Origin: Caldimicrobium sp.
GTDB lineage: Bacteria; Desulfobacterota; Thermodesulfobacteria; Thermodesulfobacteriales; Thermodesulfobacteriaceae
NCBI GenBank assembly: GCA_009903935.1
Contig: WYEG01000026.1
Coordinates: forward strand, 1 to 64,000
Reading direction: 5' to 3'
DNA length: 64,000 nucleotides
Shown here in pieces: positions 53,493-59,299 of this stretch. The position numbers and the translations under genes were made by a program. Each line of letters starts with the position of its first letter. Position 1 is the first letter of the stretch. Below the pieces are notes generated by a model. That model saw nothing but the letters and a program-made list of their open reading frames with translations. It was not told the origin of the DNA and did not search any database.

Positions 53493-53512
53493 ACAACTAA
53501 AAGGTCTTAAAG

Positions 53513-54718
53513 ATGCCTCTATACAGATTTAAGGCCTTGCTACCTGATGGAAGTATAGCTGAGGATGAGGGCATATACGAGAACCCTGAACAGCTTTTTA
53601 ATGAGCTAAGGGCTGAAGGTGCCTTTTTACTCGAATACACTGAAAAACGCAGCCTCCTCCCAAAGTTCTTCTCAAGAAGAGTAAAAAGAAAGGAGATAGC
53701 AGAGCTTCTTCATCAACTTTCGATTACCTTAAAAAGCGGAATTCCCTTAATTTCAGCCCTTGAGGATTTAGAACCAGAGATAAAAAATAAAATCTTAAAA
53801 GAAGTTGTGCGAAATATCAGGCAATCTTTACGAAGGGGGGCAACCGTTCGAGAAGCCTTTGAAAGAACGGGAGTTTTCAGCGGCATCGTCCTTTCCCTAA
53901 TCCAGATCGGCGAGGAATCGGGAACGCTTGACAGGACTTTTGAAGAGGCTTCTCAACATCTCTACCGCATAGAAGAGATTATGTCCCAAACTAAAAGGGC
54001 TTTAATCTATCCTTCCTTTGTCCTCCTTGCCATGACTGGAGCCTTCTCCTTCTGGATGTTCTATGTTCTTCCACAAATACTTAAGGTATTTACCGAGATG
54101 AACATTAAGCTTCCCACGCCAACGATCCTACTAATGAACATCGTCAACTTTTTTCTGCGCATAAAGTTTATTTTACCCTTCATCTTTATCGGTGCTATTT
54201 TCTTGTTTGTTTTTCTCTATCGGCACCCCAAAACTCAGGCTCCTATGGAAAGGTTTCTACTCAAAACTCCAATCCTCGGACGGGTCAAAAGGACAAGCTT
54301 TCTTGCCTTCTTTTTTGAGCATTTTTCCCTTTTGCTTTCTGCAGGGCTTGATTTAAGACGGATACTCTATCTTTTGAAATCAGCCTTTCCCAACAGATAT
54401 TATCAAAGGATAGTCCTGTCGATGGAGGAAGGCATAACTAGAGGAGAAACCATTACTGATACTCTAAAAAAGCATGAAGTATTTCGACCGATTGACATAA
54501 GGATGGTGGCAGTGGGAGAGAGAACTGGAAGGCTTGATACTCAGATGAAGATGCTTTCCGCTTTTTACTTTGAGGAAGTTAAGAACCTAATGGACCAGTT
54601 AACCAAAATACTTGAACCGGTCATTCTTACCATCTCAGGGATAATTTTTCTTCTTATCATCATAGCCCTTATCGGACCTGTGTATGAGCTTATCTCTCAG
54701 GTCGGTAAGGCCTATTAA
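53513..54718 (+). CDS. MshG/GspF/PilC-type platform protein
   Basis: 401 residues with two T2SSF repeats, each a cytoplasmic four-helix bundle (FFSRRVKRKEIAELLHQLS and RTSFLAFFFEHFSLLLSAG as start segments) and membrane helices at about 165-190, 215-235 and 370-395. It anchors the extension ATPase. Last gene of the operon; its stop TAA shares four bases with that of the creatininase-family gene. Confidence 0.93.
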   Translation: MPLYRFKALLPDGSIAEDEGIYENPEQLFNELRAEGAFLLEYTEKRSLLPKFFSRRVKRKEIAELLHQLSITLKSGIPLISALEDLEPEIKNKILKEVVRNIRQSLRRGATVREAFERTGVFSGIVLSLIQIGEESGTLDRTFEEASQHLYRIEEIMSQTKRALIYPSFVLLAMTGAFSFWMFYVLPQILKVFTEMNIKLPTPTILLMNIVNFFLRIKFILPFIFIGAIFLFVFLYRHPKTQAPMERFLLKTPILGRVKRTSFLAFFFEHFSLLLSAGLDLRRILYLLKSAFPNRYYQRIVLSMEEGITRGETITDTLKKHEVFRPIDIRMVAVGERTGRLDTQMKMLSAFYFEEVKNLMDQLTKILEPVILTISGIIFLLIIIALIGPVYELISQVGKAY

Positions 54719-55431
54719 AAACCAGCCAAGGCTTGCTTTAAAGCCAAAATAAACCTTTGAGCTAAAATTTCCCCTTTCTTTGCACTGGCAAGATTTGGTC
54801 TTCCCCAGATGCCAGAGCTCCAATATTCTTTTTTGTTGGCAACAACCCAATGCCTTGGAAACTTGGGATAATCCTCAAAACCACCTTCTTTAACTAAATG
54901 AGGCTTAAGATAGAGGATTAGAGAGGTTTCCCATTCGCCGGCATGAGAATCTGAAGAGGGGATGTTTAACTCAGAAAAGGCTTCTTTTAAGAGGTCACAG
55001 ATGTTCGCAACGAAAGCCTTGGTTTCTGGATGATTTCTTACGAATTCTTCGCAGGCATCAACAAGATAGCAAAGATGAGTTCCGCCTGCATGTCCAGAAA
55101 GGATGATAAATTTTTTCAAGCCAAAATGATGAAGCTCACAAAGAATATCAAGAAGAAGTTGTTTTAAAGTTTCTCCTCTTATGCTGATCGTTCCGGGTAG
55201 CCCATGAGTGCTTCGACAAAGCCCATAATAGATAGGGGGGGCAAGTAGAGCTTTGACCTCTTTTATGGCAAGCTTGCAGAGCTCATAAATAGTATAAAGG
55301 TCTGTGGCTAAGGGGAGATGTGGACCGTGGGCTTCGACCGAACCAACAGGAATAATCACTTTATCAGTCTGCTGAAGAGAAGCGCTAAACTCTTCAGATG
55401 TCATCTCCTCGATGAGCATGGATATTTTCAT
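54715..55431 (-). CDS. Creatininase-family amidohydrolase-fold protein
   Basis: 238 residues with the creatininase (PF02633) metal motifs: PVGSVEAHGPHLPLATD near residues 27-43, LSGHAGGTH and DSHAGEWET. Zinc or manganese ligands are the Glu/His/Asp of these motifs. Members act on creatinine, formamide precursors of riboflavin/F420 (ArfB) or mycofactocin precursors (MftE). Which one applies is not decided by sequence. GAGGTTT precedes the ATG and a near-consensus promoter lies upstream. Confidence 0.85.
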   Translation of the reverse strand: MKISMLIEEMTSEEFSASLQQTDKVIIPVGSVEAHGPHLPLATDLYTIYELCKLAIKEVKALLAPPIYYGLCRSTHGLPGTISIRGETLKQLLLDILCELHHFGLKKFIILSGHAGGTHLCYLVDACEEFVRNHPETKAFVANICDLLKEAFSELNIPSSDSHAGEWETSLILYLKPHLVKEGGFEDYPKFPRHWVVANKKEYWSSGIWGRPNLASAKKGEILAQRFILALKQALAGF

Positions 55432-55475
55432 AGAAACCTCAACAAAAATGGATGCAGTAGGTTTAGTAAAAAATA

Positions 55476-55504
55476 ATTATAAAATTAACCTTTCTAAAGG
55501 TCAA
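55476..55504 (-). promoter_or_regulatory. Sigma70-type promoter of the creatininase-family gene
   Basis: Minus-strand TTGACC (55499-55504) and TATAAT (55476-55481) with 17-base spacing. The MITE-like element begins 11 bases upstream of the -35 and its target duplication touches it, so the insertion could alter upstream activation. Confidence 0.7.
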
Positions 55505-55735
55505 GAAATTTCAAGAGGCTGTTCAAAAAAGTCCCCCTACTTTGTCCTGCCGAGCGTGAGCTAAGCATCCCTCGCTTCGTTCGGGACGGCGTCCCTCCTC
55601 ACTTCGTTCGGGACAGTGCTTCGGGATGTCCTCCCGAGGCACGCAAGTGCCGAGGGACCCCTCGGCTGACGCCTCGGGGCGACAGCAGGAGAGCTTGCAC
55701 AAAAAACATTTTTAGTACAGCCTCAGAAATTTCAA
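55504..55735. mobile_element. MITE-like element with terminal inverted repeats and 11-bp target duplication
   Basis: A 210-bp GC-rich insert (55515-55724) begins GAGGCTGTTCAAAAAAG and ends with ACAGCCTC, the reverse complement of its first eight bases; the next bases also pair with A-rich symmetry. It is flanked by perfect 11-bp direct repeats AGAAATTTCAA at 55504-55514 and 55725-55735. It has no ORF. Internal structure: a repeated CTTCGTTCGGGAC (55575-55587 and 55602-55614), a GGCAC-GCAA-GTGCC hairpin with GNRA-type loop, and imperfect CCCCTCGGC/GCCTCGGGG pairing. Its autonomous parent is unknown. Confidence 0.85.
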
Positions 55736-55842
55736 AGGGTAATTGTTCCCATAATTTCACCAAAGAAGTATGAATAAATTAACTTTGTGCAAATATTCTC
55801 ATATAGGTTTTACTTTTACCTAAACCCCTTAGCTTTAAATTT

Positions 55843-57207
55843 ATGTTAAAAAAGCTCCGGTCTATACTTTTTCCAGATAACATAGCAGAGGTTAGATGGG
55901 ATCTATTTCGATTTCAAAGAATTAAAAGCTTTTTCTATAACCGTAAGAACTTTGCTTACATCAGGACCTTTGGGGACATCGTTTTTATTTTTATAATTCT
56001 TTACGGTCTTTTTGGACCTCAATCTAAAGAGGAAAATCCGGTTATTTTTTTAACCTGGGGAATCTGGTGGCCCTCCGTTGTGCTTTCTTGGTTTTTTCTC
56101 GGTAGAATGTGGTGCGCCTTTTGCCCCTTCCCAGGCGTGGCAAGGCTCTTTCAAAGATTGAAACTTTCTCTTGAAAAAGAACCCCCTTTATGGCTTAAAA
56201 AATACGGCATCCACCTTGCCACTACCTTCTTTTTTGTCATCATCTGGCTTGAAACAGCTACCCCATTAGCTCAAGTTCCTCGATATACTGCCCTCCTCAT
56301 ACTTTCCGTAGTAGGATTTGCGGGCTTGTTCGGAATTTTATACAAAGGCTATGCTTGGTGTAGATATCTTTGCCCTTTGGGTAGAATAACCGGTGTTTCA
56401 GCTACCATGGCTTTAATTGAATTTCGTCCAAATCATAGCGTTTGTAAGGGTTGTAAGGGTGCATACTGTAAAAAATCAACTCCAAACATCTCCCCTTGTC
56501 CAGTCTATCTGGGAGCCATATCCGTGCAGAATAATCTTAATTGTTTTATCTGCGGACATTGTCTTCTTCTTTGTCCTAATGATTCCCCAAGGGTTTACTT
56601 GAGGCATCCTTTAAAGGAAATTATCTCAAACAAAGGTAAAGGTATTACCTGCTCTTATATTGTCCCCTTTCTTATTGGTTCTCAGATTTCAAGGTTTTTA
56701 GTGGAATCTTCTTCTTGGAAAGCCTTTTTAAGCCAGATTTATTTAGACGAAAAGATAGCTTTTACTTTGCTTTTTCTATTCCTTTCCTTTGCTATTTTAA
56801 TGCTTTCTCGTTTAACCATTCTTATTCTTGGAGTCTTTGAAGACCCAATCTTTGGCAGATTTAACCTTGCTATAGCAAGTATAATCCCTCTTGCTTTTAC
56901 AGGGGAGCTTATCTTTCGCTTAAAGTATTTCTTACAAGAATTGGATGAATTTTTAAATACTATAACTAATCTGTTAGAACTTAAATTTCTACAAGCATTA
57001 AATTTACAAATTTCAAATGTTTATATATTAATTATAAGCTATTTTCTTCTCTTTATTGCCTTTATTGCTACGCTTTATATCATTTACTACTTTTATTCTA
57101 AAGAGTTCGAACATGAAATACCTTTTAAAAATTTTACAGGCATAATATTTTTTGACTTTTGTCTTTTCTTTATTTATTTCATTATTATACCTCTTTCTTT
57201 ACATTAA
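55843..57207 (+). CDS. NosR/NapH-like membrane polyferredoxin
   Basis: A 454-residue membrane protein with Cys motifs WCAFCPFPG, WCRYLCPLGR and two C-terminal-half clusters CKGCKGAYCKKS...SPCP and CFICGHCLLLCPNDSP, 4Fe-4S type. About seven helices. The last third (after residue 280) is a helix-rich extension without Cys, longer than NapH. It likely passes electrons between the quinone pool and a periplasmic or cytoplasmic partner. No reductase gene is adjacent. A convergent ferredoxin gene ends nine bases away, suggesting related function. No clear Shine-Dalgarno. Confidence 0.82.
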   Translation: MLKKLRSILFPDNIAEVRWDLFRFQRIKSFFYNRKNFAYIRTFGDIVFIFIILYGLFGPQSKEENPVIFLTWGIWWPSVVLSWFFLGRMWCAFCPFPGVARLFQRLKLSLEKEPPLWLKKYGIHLATTFFFVIIWLETATPLAQVPRYTALLILSVVGFAGLFGILYKGYAWCRYLCPLGRITGVSATMALIEFRPNHSVCKGCKGAYCKKSTPNISPCPVYLGAISVQNNLNCFICGHCLLLCPNDSPRVYLRHPLKEIISNKGKGITCSYIVPFLIGSQISRFLVESSSWKAFLSQIYLDEKIAFTLLFLFLSFAILMLSRLTILILGVFEDPIFGRFNLAIASIIPLAFTGELIFRLKYFLQELDEFLNTITNLLELKFLQALNLQISNVYILIISYFLLFIAFIATLYIIYYFYSKEFEHEIPFKNFTGIIFFDFCLFFIYFIIIPLSLH

Positions 57208-57216
57208 TCCTTTACA

Positions 57217-57402
57217 CTAATCCCAAGATATAGCAGAAACAGGACAACTATTTATCGCCTCTTCGCAATTACAAGTTGAGCATCCCTCTTGGTTCTTAAC
57301 ATAAGCCTTGCCTTCTTCGTTTAAAGCAAAGACTTCTGGACAAATTTCAACGCAAGTCCCGCAACCAATGCAAAGTTCATCATCAACCTTAAGTTCTGCC
57401 AT
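57217..57402 (-). CDS. Small 4Fe-4S ferredoxin
   Basis: 61 residues with one cluster: CIGCGTCVEICPEVF and the distal CP in NSCPVSAI, plus two extra cysteines (CSTCNC) in the middle that often form a disulfide in single-cluster ferredoxins of the Thermotoga/Desulfovibrio type. AGGAGGGTAGG precedes the ATG. An FNR/CRP-type box lies ahead of its promoter. Electron donor or acceptor for redox enzymes; specific partner unknown. Confidence 0.9.
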   Translation of the reverse strand: MAELKVDDELCIGCGTCVEICPEVFALNEEGKAYVKNQEGCSTCNCEEAINSCPVSAISWD

Positions 57403-57430
57403 GACCTACCCTCCTTTAAATTTTTTATAA

Positions 57431-57475
57431 ATTATAATATAGCACATGCTTTTTATTTTACTTGACCTAAATCAA
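57431..57475 (-). promoter_or_regulatory. FNR/CRP-type regulated promoter of the ferredoxin gene
   Basis: TTGACCTAAATCAA (57462-57475, + strand) is TTGAC-N4-ATCAA, one base from the FNR palindrome TTGAT-N4-ATCAA. Minus-strand TATAAT is at 57431-57436 and there is no -35 hexamer at the right place. The box centres at about -40 to -45 from the expected start, the class II activator position. The regulator is not encoded in the window. Confidence 0.65.
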
Positions 57476-57529
57476 GCTTCAAAATGTGGAGGGAAACGGC
57501 GTTTGGCTATAAAAATAGCAATCGGAGAT

Positions 57530-57712
57530 ACGACCAGCTGGTCGTCTAATTTTTTAGGAAAACGCTCACTGAGGCTCGGGGTGACACCTCCCACTGTGGC
57601 ATCAAGAGGTACGCACTGCCAAGCGATGCCTCACTTCTTTCGGAAAGGCACCTTAGGGACGCTCCTTAGGCAAAGCCCAAGGGGTGACAAGCCACGGGGA
57701 TACTCAGGGCTA
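57530..57712. repeat. GC-rich intergenic repeat region with a perfect 16-bp palindrome
   Basis: This non-coding stretch is richer in G+C than the surrounding genes. It opens with ACGACCAGCTGGTCGT (57530-57545), a perfect palindrome, followed by segments such as GGGGTGACA repeated twice (near 57578 and 57681), resembling the dispersed repeats elsewhere in the window. A 103-codon open frame crosses it but has repeat-like composition and no Shine-Dalgarno, so it is not called as a gene. Ends of an element could not be defined. Confidence 0.5.
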
Positions 57713-57727
57713 CAAAACGATAATAGA

Positions 57728-57755
57728 TTGCCTTCCCAAATTTCAATACTATATT
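57728..57755 (+). promoter_or_regulatory. Sigma70-type promoter giving a near-leaderless moaB/mogA transcript
   Basis: TTGCCT (57728-57733) and TATATT (57750-57755), 16 apart; ATG follows seven bases after the -10, so a transcript would start at or near the start codon, and no Shine-Dalgarno is visible. Confidence 0.45.
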
Positions 57756-57762
57756 AATAAAC

Positions 57763-58266
57763 ATGAACAAACTTCACCCATCCGTTGCTATTCTTACCCT
57801 AAGCGACAAAGGTAGCCGTGGAGAAAGGGAAGACCTATCGGGGAAACTCCTTCTAAAATTCTGCCAAGCACTTAACTGGGAGGTAAAGCACTACGAAATC
57901 CTTCCCGATGAAAAGGATTTGATCGCTGAAAAGCTCATCTTTTTAGCGGACCATCTAAAGGCTGACCTAATTCTTACCACAGGTGGGACGGGCGTTCATC
58001 CTCGGGATGTAACCCCTGATGCTACCTCTCAGGTAATAGAAAAGGAAGTTCCAGGACTTGCTGAATTCATACGCTTTCTCAGCTTTCAAAGGACTCCCCT
58101 TGCAGCGCTTAGCCGAGCAAGGACTGGGATCCGCGGAGAAACTTTGATCATTAATCTTCCCGGCAGCCCAAAAGCCATAGAGGAGATCTTCCCCCACCTT
58201 ACAGAAATCATTGAACATGCCGTAAGAAAGATTAAGGGCGACACGTATGAGTGCGCAAGAGGTTAA
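57763..58266 (+). CDS. mogA: MogA/MoaB-family molybdenum cofactor protein
   Basis: 167 residues: VAILTLSDKGSRGEREDLSG at the N-terminus, TTGGTGVHPRDVTPDAT (quoted as the family loop) in the middle and NLPGSPKAIEE near the C-terminus. These proteins adenylate molybdopterin to prepare molybdate or tungstate insertion. MoaB and MogA are closely related; the length suits either. It overlaps the true start of selD by 20 bases; both support selenium/molybdenum or tungsten enzymes such as formate dehydrogenase. Confidence 0.88.
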   Translation: MNKLHPSVAILTLSDKGSRGEREDLSGKLLLKFCQALNWEVKHYEILPDEKDLIAEKLIFLADHLKADLILTTGGTGVHPRDVTPDATSQVIEKEVPGLAEFIRFLSFQRTPLAALSRARTGIRGETLIINLPGSPKAIEEIFPHLTEIIEHAVRKIKGDTYECARG

Positions 58267-59299
58267 GCTCACGCAAATGGTTAAGGCTTCGGGCTGAGCA
58301 AGCAAGCTCCCACAAGGGTTCCTTGTGGAGATACTTAAGGAGCTCCCCCTTCCCTATCACCCTGACCTTATCCAAAGCTTTGAGCATGGAGCTGATGCCG
58401 CAGTCTATCGCCTAACCCCAGATATAGCCTTAGTCTTTAGCGCAGACTTTTTTACTCCTGTAGTTGATGACCCATTTGTGTTCGGACAGATTGCGGTAGC
58501 AAACTCCCTTTCTGATATCTATGTGGCAGGAGCGAAGCCCCTTCTTGCCCTAAACCTCATAAGCTTTCCCAAGAAAGGGCTTTCACGGGAGATTTTGAAG
58601 AGGATTTTAGAAGGAGGGCTAACTAAGCTCAAGGAAGCTGAAGCTCTTTTAGTTGGGGGGCATAGCGTTGATGACCCGGAGCCTAAGTATGGACTTGCGG
58701 TAGTTGGCATAATCCATCCGGATAAGGTTATCACAAACAGGGAGGCAAAGGAAGGGGACCTCCTTTACCTTACTAAACCCTTAGGCACGGGGATCTTGGC
58801 TACAGCTTTTAAGGGTAAGCTTTTTAGCGAAAACGACCCACCTTACCGCGAGATGGTTAGCATCATGACCTCTTTGAACAAAGAGATCTCTGAAATAATG
58901 GTTAAGGTAGGCGTAAGATGCGCAACTGACATTACAGGGTTTGGGCTGCTTGGACATGCCTTGGAGATGGCTTTTGCAAGCCAGAAAAAGCTCATCATCT
59001 TCGCAAGCAAAGTCCCCTATCTTAAAAGCGCCTTAGAGTTTGCAAGGATGGGTATAATACCTGAAGGAGATTACGAAAACCTTAACTTCTGCGAAAATCT
59101 TGTAAAAATCTCAACTGAAATAAAGGACGAAATTAGGATCCTTCTTGCCGATGCTCAAACCTCAGGCGGGGTTTTGCTCTGCGTCCCAAGAGAGCTAAAA
59201 GAAAAATTTGAAAAAACTGCTATTGAGAGGGGTTTTTATTCTTTCTATCAGATAGGAGAGGTCGTTTCCGGAGCTCCTTCAATAGAGGTCTTACCTTAG
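58247..59299 (+). CDS. selD: Selenide, water dikinase containing selenocysteine
   Basis: SelD makes selenophosphate, the selenium donor for Sec-tRNA and selenouridine. Read from ATG 58247 (AAGGG upstream, 20-base overlap with mogA) the frame gives MSAQEVKLTQMVKASG, then in-frame UGA at 58295-58297 as codon 17, then ASKLPQGFL. Residue 17 and Lys20 coincide with the essential Cys17 and Lys20 of E. coli SelD, so UGA is selenocysteine. A SECIS-like hairpin follows. The remainder has the GADAAVY, DFFTPVVDDP and GHSVDDPEP motifs. Total 350 residues including Sec. An apparent GTG start at 58325 would lose the catalytic residues. Confidence 0.93.
58307..58330 (+). promoter_or_regulatory. Bacterial SECIS-like hairpin in selD
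   Basis: Starting nine bases after the UGA, CTC-C-CACAAGG and CCTTGTG-GAG form a 10-bp stem with one bulged C and a small G-U-U apical loop, the loop beginning with G as in known bacterial SECIS elements. The distance from UGA to the loop (~20 bases) fits SelB-dependent recoding. Confidence 0.8.

Follow-up and report, generated by a model that had tools for sequence, protein, structure and literature searches.

Structure of the insert and the adjoining predicted promoter

In the 64,000-nucleotide stretch of Caldimicrobium sp. DNA that we analysed (hereafter the window), a GC-rich insert of 210 bp built of hairpin modules (55515..55724) lies upstream of a minus-strand gene of the creatinine amidohydrolase (creatininase) family (54715..55431, 238 aa; PF02633, E 3.9e-56). 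Its left terminal inverted repeat, GAGGCTGTTCAAAAAA (55515..55530, plus strand; family consensus GRGGCTGTTCAAAAA), is the promoter-facing end, and its right terminal inverted repeat (55709..55724, minus strand) reads GAGGCTGTACTAAAAA on the minus strand and continues inward as TGTTTTTTGTGC. The outer 8 bp of the two repeats match exactly (GAGGCTGT/ACAGCCTC), and the match extends imperfectly to 16 bp, 14 of which are complementary. The 11-bp target duplication, AGAAATTTCAA, is exact on both the promoter side (55504..55514) and the distal side (55725..55735).

The insert overlaps none of the listed ORFs (60 aa or longer), and an Rfam search of 53500-58500 matched no family. Folded as DNA, the insert performed better than 200 of 200 shuffles (z = -4.3); its several palindromic modules include GTGCTTCGGGA/TCCCGAGGCAC (55616..55642, plus strand) and TCCCGAGGCACGCAAGTGCCGAGGGACC (55631..55658, plus strand, coordinates approximate by one base), the latter recurring in many copies with one stem pair that is G-C in some and A-T in others.

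On the minus strand, a predicted -35 hexamer TTGACC (55499..55504) is separated by 17 bp from a predicted -10 hexamer TATAAT (55476..55481), and this pair is likely the promoter of the creatininase-like gene, whose ORF starts at 55431. The duplication stops after the first T of the -35 hexamer; base 55504 is the first base of both, so the element abuts the promoter with one shared base and is not merely near it. The first-pass annotation had described the exact 8-bp terminal repeats, the identical 11-bp flanks, a GC-rich insert with hairpins and no ORF, and the closeness to a -35 element; all of these hold, and the last recurs at a fixed register family-wide, which is our main finding. Elsewhere in the window, a decayed stretch resembling the GC-rich modules of the element (GGCTCGGGGTGACACC..., ...GCGATGCCTCACTTC; 57560-57720) sits between a ferredoxin-like ORF and a molybdopterin-binding-domain gene, and the ORF listed there (57446-57757) is probably not a gene.

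A multi-copy MITE family with a modular interior

We then considered the element in its own genome (G000), a draft assembly of 1.56 Mb in 68 contigs and the sole genome of its genus among those searched. BLAST with the full 210-bp query returned 96 pieces at about 40-50 places, and we compiled 51 copies of about 150-460 bp, 37 of them two-ended. The end consensus GRGGCTGTTCAAAAA, with two mismatches allowed, matched at 41 forward and 35 reverse positions, versus 4 and 3 for a reversed-pattern control. One end of the element goes on as GTCCCC..CTTTGTCCTGCCGAG, and the other as TGTTTTTGTGCAAGCC or TTTGTGCAAGCC. A target duplication with at most one mismatch, mostly 9-11 bp long, is kept in 18 of the 37 two-ended copies, and many independent copies bear their own, different duplications of 9-12 bp. 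These numerous matches with independent, differing duplications indicate that the observation in the window is not due to chance. The copies are short and numerous, carry terminal inverted repeats and no transposase ORF, and are flanked by duplications at independent sites; by its sequence, the insert is a copy of a non-autonomous DNA transposon (MITE) family, as the first-pass annotation had supposed in calling it a MITE-like product of transposition. An autonomous partner with the same ends is usual for a MITE, although the label does not require one. At one locus (L039, 1740-1775, contig C1 of G000), two copies of the element adjoin end to end with a gap of about 10 bases.

The interior of the element varies from copy to copy and is built as an array of palindromic, GC-rich modules: GTCCTGCCGAGC.., CACTTCGTTCGGGAC, TCCCGAGG-CGCGTAAGCG-CCGAGGGACC, and a unit GGCTCGGGGCGACA.. 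that occurs 0 to 10 times per copy. One stem pair of the TCCCGAGG-CGCGTAAGCG-CCGAGGGACC module reads G-C in 16 distinct sequences, A-T in 7, A-C in 3 and G-T in 2; this single covarying pair hints at selection for the hairpin, without proving it. Four copies (L046, L050, L056 and L063) each contain at least 5 tandem units of about 19-21 bp (GTCGCCCCGAGCCCCTTTTTT and variants), forming a minisatellite within a MITE.

Distribution beyond this genome

We compared 59 related genomes, 29 from the same family, and obtained matches in G017 alone. These consist of internal palindromic modules without the terminal repeats (L031, G017:C31:7499-7653); the modules may thus be an older repeat family that the element captured. 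The exact terminal repeat pattern is nearly absent from the family outside G000, and plasmid and phage collections yielded no match to the element. In viral contigs, a terminal repeat 17-mer had 13 matches, none convincingly paired with a second end, while a left-end 19-mer had 30 matches in species genomes, with pairs about 124-182 bp apart and no duplications at the tested boundaries. Phylum genomes rich in terminal repeat-like matches (G041, G080, G098 and others) contained mostly other short repeats, with no matching duplications. One of these repeats, distinct from the element and about 124 bp long, has ends like GRGGCTGTTCAAAAAGTTCCAGATGCAAGG and is multi-copy in other phylum genomes (L132-L139, L143, L151 and others), again with no duplications at the tested boundaries. 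The expansion of the element is thus lineage-specific as far as these collections show. The first-pass annotation had named two observations that would speak against it, a genome holding no other copy and conservation of the same sequence in related species without flanking repeats; we found about 50 copies in the same genome, and the element is absent from the 59 related genomes except for the internal modules in one.

Insertion in fixed register with the -35 hexamer

In the flanks of 88 element ends, read outward, TTGAC stood at offsets 8-11 in 29 cases (6, 15, 7 and 1, respectively) and occurred only 6 times at all other offsets between 0 and 44. By rules for element ends and -35 position that were set after the pattern had been seen, 37 of the 51 copies have at least 5/6 matches to TTGACA at 6-12 nt outside one end (8.2% in random placements). 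With a -10 added (at least 4/6 of TATAAT at 16-18 bp spacing), the count is 30 of 51, versus 1.2% in random placements scored alike, the scoring taking the best position among several in each case. An ORF on the same strand starts within 400 bp downstream in 24 of the 30 copies with both boxes.

The duplications place the cut more closely. Of the 18 copies with clean duplications, 15 were cut on the promoter side exactly after the initial T of the -35 hexamer and before the second (..T^TGAC, with T^TGCC, T^TGAT and T^TGCT in weaker boxes). The position is uncertain by one or two bases in two of the remaining three copies, and the third has TACT^GACA. About 14 of the 51 copies have no recognisable -35 at the register, some of these being one-ended or decayed. 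The flanks of a copy have only the duplication in common, and the hexamer lies on one side, outside the element, with sequence beyond it that differs between copies; the hexamer is therefore part of the target rather than of the element. The end facing the predicted promoter is the left one in 26 copies and the right one in 14, with 3 copies unassigned. At the level of sequence comparison, these results show that most of the family was inserted in a fixed register relative to the -35 hexamer; given this shared position, the mobilising enzyme seems to have targeted promoters.

Promoter or motif as the target

A transposase guided by a DNA motif alone (about CTTGACA), with no regard to promoters or RNA polymerase, could have produced the same pattern if promoters were struck through the motif and insertions within genes were then lost. 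This alternative concerns only the means of targeting; it has the MITE family and the register in common with our best explanation, and the confidences in the two are not additive. A -10 follows TTGAC at 29 of 57 sites beside element-like ends versus 76 of 490 elsewhere (p = 9e-9). Outside the element-associated sites, a -10 follows 28 of 64 intergenic TTGAC sites and 12% of those in coding DNA, which indicates that loss of in-gene insertions explains part of the enrichment, as the motif reading would have it. The -35 match at insertion sites is also very strict (T 36/37, T 37/37, G 36/37 and C 36/37, among sites chosen for having a good -35), and TTGAC has a C before it at 27 of 37 insertion sites compared with 29 of 76 other TTGAC sites with a -10. 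This C preference fits an additional sequence preference of the enzyme, or else stronger promoters. However, of the 37 insertion sites that have a -35, 30 also have a -10, a frequency still above the 28 of 64, with a scoring that picks the best of several positions; furthermore, several copies have a weak -35 yet a strong, well-spaced -10 (TATAAT in L053, TATAAA in L047, TATTAT in L056 and TATGAT in L046). Weighing these points, we give targeting by motif alone slightly less than an even chance.

Search for a parent transposase

The first-pass annotation had proposed searching the genome for the element ends with a transposase between them. That search uncovered many copies, but no transposase-bearing parent with these ends was found in G000 or its family, the G000 draft assembly being broken at several copies, where a parent may have been collapsed or lost. 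We searched the own genome with the profiles PF01609, PF06782, PF00872, PF12762 and PF13737, and relatives with NF033572; G000 gave no DDE_Tnp_1, UPF0236, DDE_Tnp_1_5 or ISKra4 match. The search yielded only broken IS256-like relics and one IS1595-like relic of 29 residues. The IS256-type transposase genes, on contigs C19 and C46 (L091, L092 and L093), are interrupted by stops, and no matching element ends lie near them. The IS1595-like relic (MDESYFGGRRKVKRGRG, with a DESYFGGRRK motif) lies at L068 889-950 (contig C1; also L176), about 170 bp beyond an element copy. One-ended copies, read onward for hidden long elements, held only hairpin modules where readable.

Derivation from a Mutator-type promoter-targeting element of the ISLre2 or ISKra4 group would account for the choice of target, since members of both groups are reported upstream of sigma-A promoters, in some cases in either orientation (PMC3942029). 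We consider it improbable: the published repeats are 8 or 9 bp, the -35 of ISLre2/TnGBS targets is about 16 bp away, G000 gave no UPF0236 or ISKra4 match, and the three ISKra4 elements of the phylum with delimitable ends and duplications have ends unlike those of the family, for example GGGTGTGGCTCTTTT and GGGAGCATTCGC. Against an ISLre2/TnGBS derivative in particular stand the element's offset of 8-10, its duplications of mostly 9-11 bp and the lack of a UPF0236 match in G000.

The IS4-type transposition suggested by the first-pass annotation from the length of the 11-bp duplication did not gain support. Some IS4 subgroups make duplications of 9-12 bp, a length that fits, but a MITE of an IS4-family transposon is quite unlikely here, as the genome contains no DDE_Tnp_1 (PF01609), a profile that was positive in 9 of 14 well-known genomes in our control search, and no full-length parent or end match was found. 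Random insertion followed by selection retaining only copies upstream of promoters is hardly credible: the copies are mostly intergenic, as it would predict, but it is contradicted by the fixed register, because selection against damage cannot confine insertions to offsets 8-10, with only 1-2 bases of play relative to the -35.

Proposed mechanism

As a whole, the data are very probably best explained by a lineage-specific MITE family mobilised by a DDE-type transposase that made a staggered cut in the -35 of sigma-70 promoters. Within this explanation, the family, its ends and duplications, the fixed register, the -10 boxes and both orientations are read directly from the DNA. A DDE-type transposase, now lost or missing from the assembly, would have recognised the GRGGCTGTTCAAAAA ends and made a staggered cut, usually of 9-11 bp, with the promoter-side nick inside the sigma-70 -35 hexamer (T^TGACA), and the element would have been inserted in either orientation. 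Gap repair would then duplicate the bases just upstream of the -35, its first T included; with that T inside the duplicated block, the outward-facing promoter would be rebuilt whole and the gene would stay expressible. Targeting could come about through a transposase that reads CTTGAC or through contact with promoter-bound RNA polymerase. Regulatory DNA lying beyond about 10 bp on the upstream side of the -35 would be displaced by 150-460 bp, and the hairpin-rich DNA taking the place of the native upstream DNA may insulate the core promoter or alter its activation.

A bolder version, which we regard as possible but rather doubtful, holds that an undescribed transposase docks on the promoter-bound sigma-70 holoenzyme, cuts inside the -35 and rebuilds the promoter, and that its MITEs have in this way substituted arrays of hairpin modules for the regulatory DNA upstream of dozens of genes.

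Comparison with known systems

Transposons that aim at promoters in a fixed register are rare in bacteria, and the known cases that we found are Mutator-type elements. If our reading is true, a second type, cutting in the -35 and present in about 50 copies per 1.56 Mb, would suggest that safe promoter-side insertion arose more than once; the family would also flag probable promoters in an unstudied organism, and would lead towards a transposase of use for promoter-directed integration once an autonomous relative is found. The yeast elements Ty1 and Ty3 insert in a set position with respect to a promoter complex; these are retrotransposons associated with RNA polymerase III, and the likeness is an analogy only.

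Among MITEs, BrickBuilt of Porphyromonas gingivalis is likewise intergenic with an internal tandem repeat array; our element differs in its palindromic modules and mixed array, and the available part of the BrickBuilt description reports no -35 register (PMC4596501). MITEAba12 is also a short MITE, with 9-bp duplications, and is mobilised in trans by an IS, the ends of related IS beginning GGCT; unlike the present family, its targets show no sequence trend and its parent, ISAba12, is known (PMC6382973). In a limited literature check, the available part of a 2024 review of prokaryotic MITEs mentions no MITE with such a register (PMC10969869).

The closest behaviour is that described by Guerillot et al. 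in 2014, in which TnGBS/ISLre2 elements insert upstream of sigma-A promoters with the -35 about 16 bp from the right end, and 13 ISKra4-group elements also lie upstream of such promoters, the repeats of these elements being 8-9 bp (PMC3942029). Our family resembles TnGBS/ISLre2 (p-MULT 3) and ISKra4 (p-MULT 4) in inserting at a fixed distance just upstream of promoters and in having ends that terminate with a conserved C (G on the complementary strand), and resembles ISKra4-type elements in having copies in both orientations (PMC3942029). Unlike these autonomous elements with 8-9 bp repeats, it is a MITE family without a transposase and with duplications of mostly 9-11 bp; and unlike p-MULT 3, with its -35 about 16 bp from the end, the cut falls inside the -35, about 9 bp separating end from hexamer. 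We call it a new MITE family that targets promoters in a new way, its behaviour being of the same kind as that of TnGBS, ISLre2 and ISKra4.
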